Positions 2,577 through 21,858 of a stretch of 24,936 nucleotides of DNA are shown one piece after another. The stretch's first letter is position 1. Every line of letters begins with the position of its first letter. Source of the stretch: a virus. Under the pieces are notes generated by a model. That model was not told the origin of the DNA and ran no database searches. It saw only the letters and a list, made by a program, of their open reading frames with translations. The translations under genes were made by a program, and so were the position numbers. The stretch is taken from positions 8,032 to 32,967 of IMG/VR virus record IMGVR_UViG_3300008117_000661; one strand, 5' to 3'.

Positions 2577-3557
2577 ATGGCATTTGCTAATAGTGCAATT
2601 ACCGATATTATCGCTACTACCATTCAAAGCCGTAGCGGTGTATTGGCCGACAACTTGACGCAGAACAACGCAGTGCTTCAGCGTCTTAACTCAAAGGGCA
2701 ATGTACGCCCATTCTCAGGCGGTAATGTAATCCTTGAGGAAATCATGTACAACGATCCAAATACGAACAATGTTAATTCGTATAGCGGATACGAAGTTTT
2801 AAATATTACCCCTGATAGCCCAATCTCTGCGGCACAGTTCAGCATTACTCAGTACGCTGACTCTGTAACAATGAGTGGTCTAGAAATGCTCCAAAACTCA
2901 AGCAAAGAAGCAATCATTGACCTGTTAGATGGTCGTATGCAAGTTTCTGAAGCCCGTCTTTTGAACCGCATTTCAAGTGACATCTATGGTGACGGTACAG
3001 GTAACGGTGGTAAGAACATTACTGGTTTAGCGGCCGCTGTTGCTGTTGCTAATACAACTGGTACATACGGTGGTATCAATCGTGCAAACTGGACATTTTG
3101 GCAAAACCAATCTTCCACAGGTGCAGATTCTTCTAGCTTGATTCAAGCCGCTATGACTTCTGCCGCAATCAAGTCTGTTCGTGGAACTGATAAGGTAGAC
3201 CTCATTATTGCTGGTAACACCCTGTATCAACGCTATGTTGCATCCTTACAGGCTATACAGCGTATTGCTGGTGTAGACGAAGGTGCGGCTGGCTTTGCTT
3301 CCTTGAAGTTCTACGGTGGTGGTATGTCTGCCGATGTTGTACTCGGTGGTGGTATTGGCGCACAAGAGAATGCGCTTTATATGTATCTCTTGAACACCAA
3401 CTACATTTTCTTCCGCCCACACAAAGAGCGTAATTTCGTTCCTATCGGTGGTGAGCGTCAATCGATTAACCAAGATGCAATCGTGAAGCTGTATGGCTGG
3501 GCTGGTAACCTTACCTGCTCTAATGCTTCATTGCAAGGCATCTTGTCAGGCACTTAA
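2577..3557 (+). CDS. Major capsid protein
   Basis: A protein of 326 residues, the usual size for an HK97-fold coat protein without a long N-terminal delta domain. The N-terminus is Ser/Thr/Asn-rich. The middle has a glycine-rich loop followed by ITGLAAAVAVAN and a GGINRANWTFW segment (about 155-175), an arrangement common in podovirus coat proteins. The C-terminal part contains an FRPHKERNFVPIGG stretch typical of the last beta-strands. It is preceded by AAAGGAAATATC, a good ribosome site, and lies between a scaffold-like gene and a small capsid-associated gene. Codon choice differs mildly from its neighbours (GGT, GCT and CGT favoured), as expected for the most highly expressed phage gene. 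Confidence 0.9.
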   Translation: MAFANSAITDIIATTIQSRSGVLADNLTQNNAVLQRLNSKGNVRPFSGGNVILEEIMYNDPNTNNVNSYSGYEVLNITPDSPISAAQFSITQYADSVTMSGLEMLQNSSKEAIIDLLDGRMQVSEARLLNRISSDIYGDGTGNGGKNITGLAAAVAVANTTGTYGGINRANWTFWQNQSSTGADSSSLIQAAMTSAAIKSVRGTDKVDLIIAGNTLYQRYVASLQAIQRIAGVDEGAAGFASLKFYGGGMSADVVLGGGIGAQENALYMYLLNTNYIFFRPHKERNFVPIGGERQSINQDAIVKLYGWAGNLTCSNASLQGILSGT

Positions 3558-4615: not shown

Positions 4616-5518
4616 ATGTCATCGACCATGCTCCAATTAGTCCAGCAAGTAACCGCTGAACTAAACTTAGCCATTCCTACCTATGTGCAGGGCAATACAA
4701 GTCAGGATGTGCAACAAGTCCTAGCCTTGATGAACCGTGCTGGGTATGACTTGGTTAAGGAGTATGACTGGCAAGCTTTGGAACTGGAGTACCGTTTCTA
4801 CACCACAGCAATTACTACGACCTGCGACACGATTAACAATACCTACAATTTATTGAATGTTGGTAATGTCACGGGTCTAAACAGCAATTACTCAGTAGTC
4901 GGTACTAATGTTCCACAAGATACTTATGTAGAAAGCGTAGCAGGGTCTACCGTAACTGTTAGCCAGCTTGCATCGGCTACCAGCGTAGGTGGAACTGTTA
5001 CCTTCTCACAGACCAAGTATCCATTACCGCCTGACTTTGAAACCATTACGGACAATACGCATTGGGACAAGACAAAACATTGGCAGATGCTTGGGCCTGA
5101 AGATGCTCAACAATGGCAGTGGCTAAAGTCGGGTTATATCTCAACAGGCCCACGGATTCGTTGGCGTATTTTGGGTAGTCAGTTCCAAATTTGGCCGCCT
5201 TACAACACACAAGAATATTTAGGTTTTGAGTACCGCTCAAAAGGTTGGGTAAGAAGTGCCGCTGGAGCAGTCAAAAACAGCTTTACCGTTGATACCGATA
5301 CGACTGTATTGGATGACACCGTATTAGTCTTAGCTACAAAACTTAAGTATTTCCAAATCAAGTCGTTTGATACAACAGCACTGCAACAAGACTATAACCG
5401 TTATTTAAGCGTTGCCAAGGCTAACGATAAGGGTTCAGCTACCCTATCCTTTGCGCCATACCCAAGCAAGGTGCTTATTGGTTACGCCAATATCCCCGAC
5501 ACAGGCTACGGTAGCTAA
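4616..5518 (+). CDS. Head-to-tail adaptor/connector-like protein
   Basis: A protein of 300 residues. The N-terminus is helical and matches the start of adaptor-type connector proteins (LVQQVTAELNL, then a QQVLALMNRAGYDLVKEYDW helix at about residues 33-53). Residues 80-128 look like a small inserted beta domain with a VTGLNSNYSVVGTNVPQDTYV stretch and repeated VTVS/VTFS strands, a common ornament in phage virion proteins. The remainder (YPLPPDFETI, then WRILGSQFQIWPP) resembles the body of podovirus head-completion proteins. It sits one base after the previous stop and directly before the tail hub, as expected for the joint between portal and tail. Confidence 0.65.
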   Translation: MSSTMLQLVQQVTAELNLAIPTYVQGNTSQDVQQVLALMNRAGYDLVKEYDWQALELEYRFYTTAITTTCDTINNTYNLLNVGNVTGLNSNYSVVGTNVPQDTYVESVAGSTVTVSQLASATSVGGTVTFSQTKYPLPPDFETITDNTHWDKTKHWQMLGPEDAQQWQWLKSGYISTGPRIRWRILGSQFQIWPPYNTQEYLGFEYRSKGWVRSAAGAVKNSFTVDTDTTVLDDTVLVLATKLKYFQIKSFDTTALQQDYNRYLSVAKANDKGSATLSFAPYPSKVLIGYANIPDTGYGS

Positions 5519-7730: not shown

Positions 7731-8523
7731 TTACGCAGGTGCGGCTAGAGAAACAGCGGCAGGTAACCTAGATGCGGCACGGGCTAATATTGCCGCCAAC
7801 CGTGTTAATCAGATTACACCGTATGGCAATGTTAATTATGCAATGACAGGTGAGGATAAGTACGGTAATCCAACTTGGACAGCTACTCAGACGCTTGCTC
7901 CTGACCAACAACGCTTATTAGACATACAAAACCAACTAAGCATTGGCACTGGTGAACTAGGCGAAAAAGGTCTTGGATATGTCAGAAACATGATTGACAA
8001 GCCATTTGATACAAGTGCTTTGCCATCGACAGGCTTTAATCCTAGTCAGACATACCAAGAAGCCTATATGCAAAGGCTTGCCCCACAGCTTCAACAAAAT
8101 CGTGACAAGCTACAACAGCAACTAGCCAATCAAGGTATTGACATTGGTTCTGAAGCGTATGACCGAGCAATGATGCAACAAGCCCAGCGTGAGAATGACC
8201 TTCTTTTGGGCGCAACAACCCAAGGTTTTGGCGTAGGTCAACAAGCTAGAGGTCAAGCCCTACAAGAACAAGCGTACCTTAGAAATGAACCAATTAACAC
8301 CTTAAACGCTGTTCGTTCAGGCGCACAAGTAACTAGCCCACAATTTGTAAACCCAGCCAGCCAAGCAGTCACCGCTGGCCCTGATTTACTCGGTGCGGCA
8401 CAAGCGCAAGGTAATGCGGCAATGAACGCTTATAACGCTCAGGTAGCTTCCCAAAACGCTAACACCCAAGGACTCTACAGTCTTGGTGGATCGGCAATGA
8501 TGGCTGGAGCAATGTTCTTCTAA
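7693..8523 (+). CDS. Ala/Gln-rich virion protein, probable DNA-ejection (internal) protein
   Basis: A protein of 276 residues starting with a proline-rich tip (SAPPPPDYAGAA). A long Gln- and Ala-rich helical region follows (about 90-200: LQQNRDKLQQQLANQGI, YDRAMMQQAQRENDLL). The tail ends in a hydrophobic Gly/Ala/Met stretch. This composition and the PPPPDY start recur in small internal or ejection proteins of podovirus-like phages. The start at 7693 lies inside the acetyltransferase gene but is well supported by TAGGAGAGAAGT just before it. It ends TAATG with the PAPS-reductase gene. Role in genome delivery is inferred from composition and neighbourhood. Confidence 0.65.
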   Translation: MGKSAPSAPPPPDYAGAARETAAGNLDAARANIAANRVNQITPYGNVNYAMTGEDKYGNPTWTATQTLAPDQQRLLDIQNQLSIGTGELGEKGLGYVRNMIDKPFDTSALPSTGFNPSQTYQEAYMQRLAPQLQQNRDKLQQQLANQGIDIGSEAYDRAMMQQAQRENDLLLGATTQGFGVGQQARGQALQEQAYLRNEPINTLNAVRSGAQVTSPQFVNPASQAVTAGPDLLGAAQAQGNAAMNAYNAQVASQNANTQGLYSLGGSAMMAGAMFF

Positions 8524-9248
8524 TGCAAGACTTTTTAAACCGCCACGAAAAGATTGCCTTGATGTTTTCAGGCGGTAGAGATTCGCTTGCGTGTTTAGAG
8601 TTATATCGTGATTACTTAGACAAAATGACCCTAATATGGGTCAATACAAGTGCAAACTTCCCTGAAATCGAAGATTACATGGATCAGTTAAATGTTCCTA
8701 ATTTTGTAGAAGTTCGCACAAACCAGCCGTTATCGTTAGAGGTAAACGGTCACCCTGTAGACATATTACCTGTCAATTTCAGCAATATTGGACAAGCAGT
8801 TACAAGCCAAAAAGACATTAAATTACGCACTTACTTTGATTGCTGTGCTGAGAACCAATGGATACCAGCGCACCAAAAGATACAAGAACTAGGGATTACC
8901 TGCGTTGTTCGGGGTCAAAGACAGTCCGAATCACACAAAAACCCTATTAAGTCAGGTGAAGTTATTGACGGCATTGAATATGTTTTTCCAATACTGCATT
9001 GGTCTGACCAAGATGTAGTCGAGTACCTAAAGAGCAAAGACATTGAAATTACCGAGCGTCTATCGATGTCGCACTCTAGCCTAGATTGCTGGAACTGTAC
9101 CGCTTATATTGCTGACAGTAAACAACGCTTTGAATACATTAAAAAGCATTACCCACAACAGCACGAAGCAGTAGTCAATTTGCTAAAAAGAATCGATAAT
9201 GTAGTAACAGCAGAAATAAACAAAATTCGTCAAATTACAGAGGTTTAG
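8523..9248 (+). CDS. PAPS-reductase/adenine-nucleotide alpha-hydrolase family enzyme
   Basis: A protein of 241 residues with the PP-loop SGGRDS at residues 16-21, which binds the phosphates of ATP or PAPS. A Cys-Cys pair lies at 107-108. A CVVRGQRQSES block (about 127-137) matches the RG.R...S motif of PAPS/APS reductases. It is followed by FPILHWSDQDVVEYL (about 155-169), the conserved P...W...DV..Y segment, and a second pair CWNC at 189-192. The family reduces sulfate donors (CysH) or, in relatives such as DndC, acts in DNA phosphorothioation. Which reaction applies here is unknown. It lies inside the virion operon, coupled by TAATG to an ejection gene, an unusual place for a metabolic enzyme but one I recall from other phages. 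Confidence 0.85.
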   Translation: MQDFLNRHEKIALMFSGGRDSLACLELYRDYLDKMTLIWVNTSANFPEIEDYMDQLNVPNFVEVRTNQPLSLEVNGHPVDILPVNFSNIGQAVTSQKDIKLRTYFDCCAENQWIPAHQKIQELGITCVVRGQRQSESHKNPIKSGEVIDGIEYVFPILHWSDQDVVEYLKSKDIEITERLSMSHSSLDCWNCTAYIADSKQRFEYIKKHYPQQHEAVVNLLKRIDNVVTAEINKIRQITEV

Positions 9249-18379: not shown

Positions 18380-18658
18380 TTAACGGGCGGTAACTTTGAG
18401 GGTAATAACTGCGGTGGTCTTGGTGTGTTTCTCGATTAACTCGGAAGGTACATTGGCTTCTGCGTACACAGCTTTGTTATCTACGGTCTTGCGCTGGGAT
18501 AAGGTTACACACGCTTTGTAGAGGTTACCCTCGATGTGTCCTTCTTCTTGTTTGAGTTCGGTCTTGAGTGCTTCTGCCTGTGCTTCTAGGTCAGCAATCT
18601 GTGCCAAGAGCATACCTAATTGGTCAACTTTGGTAATTTGTAGGTCTAAAACTTGCAT
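18380..18658 (-). CDS. Small phage protein with N-terminal coiled coil
   Basis: A protein of 92 residues. Residues 10-38 form a coiled coil (MLLAQIADLEAQAEALKTEL). The second half has a conserved-looking pattern G.IEGNLYKACVTLSQRKTVD then LIEKHTKTTAVITLKVTAR. I recall similar small proteins, with an EG..y.A.vs...r..vD..a motif and a closing V..TAR, in the early or recombination regions of many proteobacterial phages. Function is not assigned. It is the first gene of the leftward operon and has a perfect AAGGAGAATCAA leader. It lies about 35 bases after the predicted start of an operator-controlled promoter. Confidence 0.7.
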   Translation of the reverse strand: MQVLDLQITKVDQLGMLLAQIADLEAQAEALKTELKQEEGHIEGNLYKACVTLSQRKTVDNKAVYAEANVPSELIEKHTKTTAVITLKVTAR

Positions 18659-18700
18659 TTGATTCTCCTTTTCTATCTCACTGCCCGATGCAGTAATGAC

Positions 18701-18730
18701 AGTATAAGTTAAGTAATCTTAACAATGCAA
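18701..18730 (-). promoter_or_regulatory. Leftward promoter with operator in its spacer
   Basis: Read leftward, TTGCAT (18725-18730) and TATACT (18701-18706) are separated by 18 bases and form a plausible sigma-70 promoter with a near-consensus -10. The spacer holds the perfect dyad GTTAAG-N4-CTTAAC (18708-18723). The predicted start is near 18694, giving a leader of about 36 bases before the gene at 18658. The same dyad lies in the rightward early promoter at 21590, so a common repressor is expected to cover both. Confidence 0.7.
18708..18723. promoter_or_regulatory. Operator, perfect copy of GTTAAG-N4-CTTAAC
   Basis: A 16-base perfect inverted repeat with six-base arms and four-base centre TAAT. 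It occupies the -35/-10 spacer of the leftward promoter. Related copies stand at 20940-20954 and 21598-21613, and half-sites at 20911-20921. The likely binder is the Cro/YdaS-like protein encoded at 20955 (inference). Confidence 0.7.
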
Positions 18731-18863
18731 GGTATTTTTATTAGGACAAACCCTAGGTTTTGGAGAAAAACAACAGGGCAGTATTTAGCAGTTACTAGCA
18801 ATAGGGCAGAAAGCCGCAAAATTCCCTAATTACTGCATCCTACTTTGGCGGCTTAACGCCCAT

Positions 18864-20954: not shown

Positions 20955-21176
20955 ATGAACTCAGTCGCTATTATTCGTTTATTGGGTGGCCCTACCAAGG
21001 TTGCTAAATTGCTAAATATCAGCGTTCCTGCCGTATCTATGTGGCAGAACGGTGATATACCCTACGATAAGCTGGTGATCCTAGCCGCAACCCTTGAGAA
21101 ACAAAGCCACGGGCTAGTAAACCGAAAGACCCTATTTCCTGAAAGTTATAAATTAATTTGGCCTGAGTTAGATTGA
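20955..21176 (+). CDS. Cro/YdaS-like transcription regulator
   Basis: A protein of 73 residues. Residues 8-37 read LLGGPTKVAKLLNISVPAVS then MWQNGDIPYDKL, the helix-turn-helix of the YdaS/Cro family (LGG..KVA..L.IS..AVS.W...G.IP). The rest is a short end with an LFPESYKLIWPEL segment typical of small phage Cro proteins. Such proteins bind dyad operators as dimers and switch early promoters. Three dyads of one type lie around it (18708, 20940, 21598), which makes it the natural binder. No CI-like partner gene is present in the window. The sequence upstream lacks a ribosome site. Confidence 0.85.
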   Translation: MNSVAIIRLLGGPTKVAKLLNISVPAVSMWQNGDIPYDKLVILAATLEKQSHGLVNRKTLFPESYKLIWPELD

Positions 21177-21178
21177 TG

Positions 21179-21184
21179 TATACT
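21179..21184 (+). promoter_or_regulatory. Possible -10 element of an RNA gene
   Basis: TATACT, identical to the -10 of the 18701 promoter, overlaps the region just after the cro stop codon. Its -35 partner is poor. If used, transcription would begin near 21191, exactly at the first base pair of the structured RNA described for 21190-21319. This is suggestive but weak on its own. Confidence 0.35.
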
Positions 21185-21189
21185 GTGCT

Positions 21190-21319
21190 GGCAGAGTGAA
21201 TACTGCTTGGTAGTTACCCTTTAAACACAGACCCCTTCGGTCTGATCTGAGTGTTTAGTAAATGAGTTAAAGGGCATTTATTAAGCATATTCACCTTAGA
21301 TCAGTCCAAAGGGGTTTTT
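21190..21319 (+). ncRNA. Candidate regulatory RNA with two alternative folds
   Basis: This stretch has no convincing ORF. It can fold as a nested rod: GGCAGA/TCTGCC (21190-21195 with 21325-21330), GTGAATA+TGCTT with AAGCATATTCAC (21196-21208 with 21283-21294, one bulge), CCCTTTAA/TTAAAGGG (21217-21224 with 21267-21274), ACAC/GTGT, and AGACC/GGTCT (21229-21243). A second fold pairs ACCCCTT (21231-21237) and CTGATCTGAG (21242-21251) with CTTAGATCAG (21295-21304) and AAGGGGT (21309-21315), followed by five Ts to 21319. The two folds share bases and exclude each other. It could be an attenuator downstream of cro, an independent small RNA, or a 6S-like rod. Confidence 0.5.
21231..21319 (+). terminator. 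Terminator-like helix within the candidate RNA
   Basis: ACCCCTT...AAGGGGT is extended by an inner ten-base helix and followed directly by TTTTT (21315-21319). The loop is long (about 43 bases), which is atypical for an intrinsic terminator, but the helix totals about 19 pairs with two mismatches. It would end cro transcription if it forms instead of the rod fold. Confidence 0.45.
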
Positions 21320-21330
21320 CTATTTCTGCC

Positions 21331-21521
21331 ACCCGAAACGACAGGGTGTTAGAAGAAGTCGGGGATGGGCTAGAGGCCAGCGAAGATGGATGCGCTGGAG
21401 CGAGGGTCGACACCTGCGATAGCCGATAGGAACTGGGTCAAGCCAGCCTATGTACCAAGCGTTACGGGATACATCTCTTGACAGTACCGCTAGTTTATTC
21501 GGACTTGCCTACAATACAGGC
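21331..21521 (+). ncRNA. Second structured, gene-free block, candidate RNA
   Basis: Between the terminator-like helix and the early promoter the sequence becomes more GC-rich and holds several clean hairpins: ACCC/GGGT (21331-21347), CCAGCG/CGCTGG (21377-21398, ten-base loop), GGT/ACC (21405-21414), ATAGG+CTGG/CCAG+CCTAT (21426-21451, two-base bulge) and GCCT/AGGC (21507-21521). Possible long-range pairs are AAGTC/GACTT (21356-21360 with 21502-21506). No tRNA, tmRNA, RNase P, group I or group II core motif was recognised. Whether it is one RNA with the preceding block is unclear. The remainder to 21589 is A-rich and shows nothing further. Confidence 0.4.
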
Positions 21522-21589
21522 GGTTTAGCTGAATATTGGAAAAAAACAACACTTAGGGAAAATACTTAGAAAAAAAAGCTAAAAAACCC

Positions 21590-21618
21590 TTGACATGGTT
21601 AAGCTACCTTAATAAACT
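21590..21618 (+). promoter_or_regulatory. Rightward early promoter
   Basis: TTGACA (21590-21595, perfect -35) and TAAACT (21613-21618) are spaced by 17 bases, the best sigma-70 promoter in the window. The spacer carries the dyad GTTAAG-CTAC-CTTAAT (21598-21613). Predicted start near 21625 gives a leader of about 36 bases, ending in AAAGGAGCAACAA before ATG 21661. It probably drives the whole early operon to the end of the window. Confidence 0.8.
21598..21613. promoter_or_regulatory. Operator copy in the early promoter
   Basis: GTTAAG-N4-CTTAAT differs from the perfect 18708 operator by one base in its right arm and overlaps the first base of the -10 hexamer. Binding here would block RNA polymerase. 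Its placement in the spacer is the same as in the leftward promoter at 18701. Confidence 0.65.
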
Positions 21619-21660
21619 ACAAGTACTCAATAACGAGTGAGATAGAAAAAGGAGCAACAA

Positions 21661-21858
21661 ATGAAAGTAACTAAATTAGAAAACAACCTGTACCACACAC
21701 AGTACACACTTGATGATGGTTCAATGATTCTTGTGTCCGATACCTTAAAGAAGGTATATATGCAAAACGGCAAATGCGTAAGAAACAGTAACCAAAAGGT
21801 TATTTACTACATGAGCCAAGAGTTAGACAGGTTCTTGGCAAAACAAGCTAACGCATGA
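21661..21858 (+). CDS. First gene of the early operon, small unassigned protein
   Basis: A protein of 65 residues with a strong AAAGGAGCAACAA ribosome site. It appears beta-rich and basic (KLENNLYHTQYTLDDGSMIL, then DTLKKVYMQNGKCV) and ends in a short helix. No family is recognised. First genes behind a strong early promoter in phages are often host-takeover or anti-defence proteins, but nothing in the sequence proves that. It is followed directly by a tiny membrane protein whose ATG overlaps its stop. Confidence 0.7.
   Translation: MKVTKLENNLYHTQYTLDDGSMILVSDTLKKVYMQNGKCVRNSNQKVIYYMSQELDRFLAKQANA

Follow-up and report, generated by a model that had tools for sequence, protein, structure and literature searches.

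The source of this DNA is a freshwater tailed phage, and the window (the whole stretch analyzed here, 24,936 nucleotides) makes up 25 kb of the 33-kb IMG/VR virus record IMGVR_UViG_3300008117_000661. The major head protein of the phage has relatives in Mx8-like phages. Within the window, a Cro/YdaS-like HTH gene is followed by a non-coding stretch and then by small early genes, beyond which lie genes for a replication-initiation-like protein, a cytosine methylase, and an HNH protein. In addition to its Pfam match, the 73-aa HTH protein matched PHROG repressor families. Two promoter- or leader-like stretches in the window, 21580-21668 and 18650-18739 (minus strand), are 74% alike, and both contain TTAAG..CTTAA palindrome-like repeats together with TTGACA/TAAACT; these stretches are perhaps operators of the HTH protein. 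The gene, the helices of the non-coding stretch, and the domain that follows were placed as listed here:

20955..21176, plus strand: Cro/YdaS-like HTH gene, 73 aa, directly upstream of the RNA (Pfam P22_Cro, 1e-7)
21179..21184, plus strand: TATACT, probable -10 of the RNA's own promoter, from hexamer placement across the family
21190-21195 with 21325-21330, plus strand: P1, class I only; 5' strand common to P0
21191..21206, plus strand: P0, 5' hairpin GCAG/CTGC whose loop is P2a, from the sequence
21196..21202, plus strand: P2a (GTGAATA), partner 21288-21294
21217..21224, plus strand: P3a (CCCTTTAA), partner the apical loop 21267-21274, in class I rods
21229..21251, plus strand: PT 5' arm, terminator-like stem, from covariation
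21252..21264, plus strand: P4 5' arm, partner 21275-21287
21267..21274, plus strand: P3b, apical loop of P4 that pairs with the linker, from pairing compared with shuffled loops
21275..21287, plus strand: P4 3' arm, from covariation
21288..21294, plus strand: P2b, a 7-8 nt bulge between P4 and PT, immediately 5' of the PT 3' arm
21295..21317, plus strand: PT 3' arm, from covariation
21315..21319, plus strand: U-tract (T5), of 5-8 T in almost every relative
21331..21496, plus strand: 3' structured domain, type C, its conserved 3' end missing in the window

The first-pass annotation had described a nested rod whose bases could rearrange into a terminator-shaped helix, and all of the pairings it proposed are present where it placed them. 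Folding was also better than in shuffled controls, a comparison that it had proposed: the minimum free energy (MFE) of 21179-21330 was -55.2 kcal/mol, where shuffled sequences averaged -34.2 (sd 3.67), giving a z of -5.72 with none of 200 shuffles as good, and the minus strand of the same region reached a z of only -3.05. The MFE structure is the PT fold, and forcing P1, P2, and P3 together gave -48.3; this nested rod is nevertheless the MFE structure of growing transcripts until the PT 3' arm emerges. The annotated terminator helix, 21231-21251 with 21295-21315, is the core of PT (21229-21251 with 21295-21317). A run of 12 pairs with one bulge was retained in part, as seven of them are the P2 pairs while part of the remainder takes bases of P4, and no conservation of an extension beyond the seven was noticed in relatives. 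P0-like hairpins of different sequence occur in other rod classes.

With the HTH protein as query, a scan of viral contigs found 191 relatives, of which 80 were kept, and three patterns expected to overlap little returned 94, 97, and 92 stretches from viral contigs. Most of the HTH relatives that we read have an RNA-like stretch after the stop codon, with a very different sequence and an unchanged fold. Intervening genes are possible: in some relatives the RNA lies hundreds of bases past the HTH gene with a gene between, which argues that the RNA is its own unit, and in L050, L102, L110, L111, and L107 it lies several hundred bp beyond the HTH gene. In L203, a tRNA-Thr (TGT) gene (8872-8947) is inserted between the two; this was the only tRNA before the RNA in a tRNA/tmRNA search that found none at the RNA itself.

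Covariance in aligned relatives, one of the checks proposed for the locus, was found in a rod alignment (A1) of 33 copies. P2, PT, and P4 together comprise 41 pairs with 98.9% of cells paired, and 22 pairs and 194 cells were changed on both sides (0/500 shuffles); the covariation score was 0.454, while shuffling gave 0.157 and slid controls did not exceed 0.094. Each helix contributed: P2 (seven pairs) had 99.1% of cells paired and both-side changes in six of the seven, PT (21 pairs) had 98.7% paired and eight pairs changed on both sides, and P4 (13 pairs) had 99.1% paired and likewise eight. For P3, the longest pairing averaged 7.3 in 55 distinct class I rods versus 4.7 with shuffled loops. 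The outermost pair of P1 was kept in 72 of 91 copies versus 62.9 when shuffled (0/2000), and P1 is broken in several recombinants, e.g., L034; pairing of P1 across the U-tract is supported modestly, and in class I only, by these sequences. The L034 copy (2996-3145) is a mosaic, with an AAGCGGA-type 5' half joined to a TCTGCC 3' side.

In a larger descriptor set of 180 distinct sequences, in which P2b was sought just upstream of the PT 3' arm, P2 reached at least 7 bp in 157 compared with 10% with shuffled P2b; the set also takes in a few rodless 3' domains (such as L249, L260, and L261), in which the short pairings are by chance. Those distinct rods with a P2 of at least 6 bp form the set of 168 used below. 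They include classes that cannot be aligned by eye with the window (the L067, L011, L196, L212, L220, L216, and L332 types), the class names resting on our reading of the sequences; clustering by shared k-mers mixed the rod classes because upstream gene sequence was included. Judged from these comparisons, more than 150 distinct relatives have preserved the knotted, terminator-like fold through near-complete sequence change.

The rod and the terminator stem had been interpreted as two mutually exclusive folds. This description applies to P0 and P1, which compete for a strand in class I, and is not supported for P2/P3 and PT/P4: in the window, PT and P4 leave every base of P2 and P3 free, and P2 abuts PT exactly, without gap or overlap, in 141 of the 168 distinct rods. 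Because of this non-overlap and exact abutment, the covariation favors a co-existing pseudoknot over exclusive folds. It indicates a pseudoknot in which the loop of the 5' hairpin would pair with the strand just before the terminator 3' arm and P2 would stack on PT, and the two helices can, as their predicted positions suggest, stack end to end. The same features would suit a stable pseudoknot equally well as a switch. Nested folding of growing transcripts predicted P2 first and PT later: P2 was present in the MFE structure of the transcript ending at P2b in 132 of the 168 distinct rods, a predicted nascent stage with P2 that precedes the point at which the terminator stem wins. P2 was present in 0 of 168 full-length MFE structures, a figure forced by the method because nested energy models cannot represent a pseudoknot.

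The signals flanking the rod are also kept. The TATACT proposed as a -10 at the rod foot has counterparts across the family, with a TATAAT-like hexamer at a fixed distance: 144 of 168 distinct rods, versus 30% in shuffles, have one that matches at five or six of six positions upstream of P0, most often 10-14 nt ahead of P2a. A simple sigma-70 scan did not list TATACT as part of a -35/-10 pair. The rod has G-U pairs that are invariant or nearly so and would be A-C mismatches on the opposite strand, and the window's rod scored 138.6 bits with the rod model on the plus strand and 29.3 on the minus strand, which together show that selection acts on the plus-strand RNA. At the other end, the terminator shape seen at first pass is present, as the G+C-rich PT stem of the window stands directly before T5, the arrangement of an intrinsic terminator, and the U-tract is conserved across rods. 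T-runs are 4-8 long and at least five long in 162 of 168 distinct rods; since rods were cut at the T-run, its presence is partly by construction, whereas its position next to PT is not. A simple terminator scan did not list PT because its loop exceeds 8.

Immediately after the U-tract begins a second structured domain, of which there are several separately folded types. In the sequences inspected the gap is about 10-25 nt, which leaves no room for a promoter, so 3' domain transcripts that start upstream must cross the U-tract. Type A was represented by 40 aligned copies, with an RNAalifold consensus of 42 pairs, 19 of them with compensatory change. Type C, the type in the window, was aligned in 19 copies (type D grouped with it), in which 37 hand-given pairs had 90.1% of cells paired and 24 pairs changed on both sides, with a covariation score of 0.486 versus 0.150 when shuffled; its loop pseudoknot (helix 7) has six pairs, five of them changed on both sides, with 99.1% paired. 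Model R2 gave the window's 3' domain 157.5 bits, with that domain itself among the model's 19 training rows. Compared with L003, the window carries a 148-bp deletion that takes away the domain's conserved 3' end (GTTGGTCGTTCTATGG) along with the beginning of a small gene. At 21481-21540 the deletion leaves the 3' domain running straight into the last part of this 64-aa small gene (remnant ...FGLAYNTGGLAEYW). Type B (TAGCCCGTACTC...), about 250 nt long, follows the U-tract in L010, L014, L027, L035, and others, and cannot be aligned by eye with types A or C. We considered homology of types A and C, which have short motifs in common, and rejected it, as R2, built from type C, matches no type A copy.

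The two parts recombine at the U-tract: one rod class precedes A, B, and C, and A is found behind several rod classes, with the U-tract as the junction. Some phages have type A without a rod, behind a different promoter-like region. Among the type A domains listed by the first pattern, the four without a full rod match (L118, L120, L136, L153) are all no more than about 200 bases from a contig end, a point in favor of rod and 3' domain being one unit.

Downstream genes differ between phages and include small unknown genes and genes for a replication-initiation-like protein, a PAPS reductase, a ParB-like protein/helicase operon, and a terminase small subunit. This variety suggests that the RNA is a gene in its own right and not a switch for a single gene, and makes an attenuator or riboswitch of one particular gene unlikely. 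In L204 (core at about 4713-4743, minus strand), the RNA is found outside the early region, with the terminase small subunit gene immediately after it. The window itself has a PAPS-reductase-like gene amid its tail genes (8523-9248, by eye).

The rod shares with intrinsic terminators a G+C-rich stem base that leads into T5 or a longer T-run; it differs from them in its upstream-pairing bulge (7-8 nt) and loop and in the structured domain that follows. In pseudoknotted riboswitches with terminators, e.g., preQ1, the pseudoknot and the terminator share bases. The RNA resembles preQ1-type riboswitches (PMC11625349) in that a pseudoknot adjoins the terminator, and differs from them in that P2 shares no terminator bases and no downstream gene is conserved. 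HK022 put RNA suppresses termination and pausing at later sites (PMC9378689); it is likewise a structured nascent RNA of the phage early region and offers a model for readthrough, but here the terminator-like stem is inside the element itself, and the relation was compared through Rfam only. GOLLD and ROOL are large structured phage RNAs of unknown function that have kissing loops, are often near tRNA islands, and form cages; many GOLLD RNAs exceed 800 nt, and in GOLLD the 3' part is conserved and the 5' part less so (PMC12286853). This RNA is also a large structured phage RNA, though smaller, with parts of about 135 and 200-240 nt and a U-tract between them, and the Rfam GOLLD and ROOL models gave no match. 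The early impression that no known phage RNA family fits was upheld, as Rfam scans of the window and 18 relatives matched no family. A second suggestion, a 6S-like RNA, was not: there was no match at gathering thresholds and no 6S family at E up to 10, and the kept structure is pseudoknotted rather than an open rod with a central bubble. Searches of the literature, mostly without subscription journals, found no description of this RNA.

Covariation shows a structured plus-strand RNA under selection, beginning near P0, in which the P0 loop pairs with P2b just ahead of the 3' arm of the PT and P4 hairpin, the apical loop also pairs upstream in class I (P3), and the U-tract comes after PT, with one of the 3' domains behind it. 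The reading we favor, with somewhat less than even confidence, is that this is a noncoding RNA gene with a promoter of its own and, as its first module, a pseudoknotted and probably leaky or conditional terminator, with readthrough to the 3' domain. The RNA would be transcribed from its own promoter; P2 (and P3) would form first, with the PT 3' arm still unmade, and PT would then zip up. The stop of polymerase at the U-tract would be set by the speed, or by a partner, of the P2-to-PT exchange. A stop would yield a short RNA of about 135 nt and readthrough an RNA of about 300-380 nt with the 3' domain; in class I readthrough RNA, the sequence after the U-tract would take the P0 strand to form P1. 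Because the U-tract and the 3' domain are both kept although transcripts pass the U-tract, partial or conditional termination is the simplest reading. Against it stand the phages that carry the 3' domain without a rod and the recombinants, such as L034, with a broken P1, and readthrough may be constitutive with the U-tract merely tolerated. The larger claim, that this is a new class of phage regulatory RNA in which a loop-bulge pseudoknot that has a 5' hairpin of its own would gate a terminator, and this terminator would be an exchangeable front end for several unrelated large RNA domains, is tentative and, in our view, somewhat doubtful. If true, it would mean that phages mix and match RNA modules at the U-tract.

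The co-occurrence of rod and 3' domain, the bridging of the U-tract by P1 in class I, and the heavy covariation in both parts would also fit one continuous noncoding RNA of about 300-380 nt, GOLLD/ROOL in spirit, with a U-rich internal linker and no termination. We regard this as unlikely, given that a T-run of at least five right after the G+C-rich stem base is kept across classes of unrelated sequence and that rods and 3' domains are swapped exactly at the U-tract. It is distinctly improbable that the rod is a plain intrinsic terminator ending an RNA of about 135 nt protected by the pseudoknot, with the 3' domain a separate gene under an unseen promoter: the stem and U-tract are there, and other phages do have a rodless 3' domain with its own upstream region, but little promoter room is left between the U-tract and the 3' domain, which is strongly selected structurally though upstream transcripts must pass the U-tract. 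A cis-acting leader of the downstream operon (attenuator, riboswitch, or HK022 put-like processive antitermination RNA) would explain the order of promoter, terminator, structured RNA, and gene, and the ending of the 3' domain just before a ribosome-binding site in several phages; the differing downstream genes, and the further promoter-like site between RNA and gene in many copies, make it very improbable. Sharp boundaries where modules change could point to a DNA-level element (recombination site, origin, or packaging site) with a folding single strand, a reading that is scarcely credible beside the fixed G-U pairs and a promoter and U-tract positioned for RNA.

Phage RNAs of this family could act in takeover, defense, or replication, and the family offers a natural series of pseudoknotted terminators for studying RNA folding during transcription. 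Rfam has no entry for the family, and only one named phage was found to carry it. When named phages were searched at the nucleotide level, the window's RNA stretch gave short chance matches only and two 3' domains gave no match, and a search of plasmids with one query (the L294 rod and type C domain) gave no match. A host assignment through L195 (CAIWVL010000095.1, a Spartobacteria MAG), the sole genome match, was rejected, as model R1 finds no rod there and the sequence after the HTH gene looks coding. The HTH relative lies at the end of this Spartobacteria-binned contig, which shifts in character after about 540 bases and is possibly misassembled. The one named phage, MW202674.1 from Manatee Spring (USA), was reached through the HTH protein; it has a diverged copy of the RNA, over which small minus-strand ORFs are annotated.
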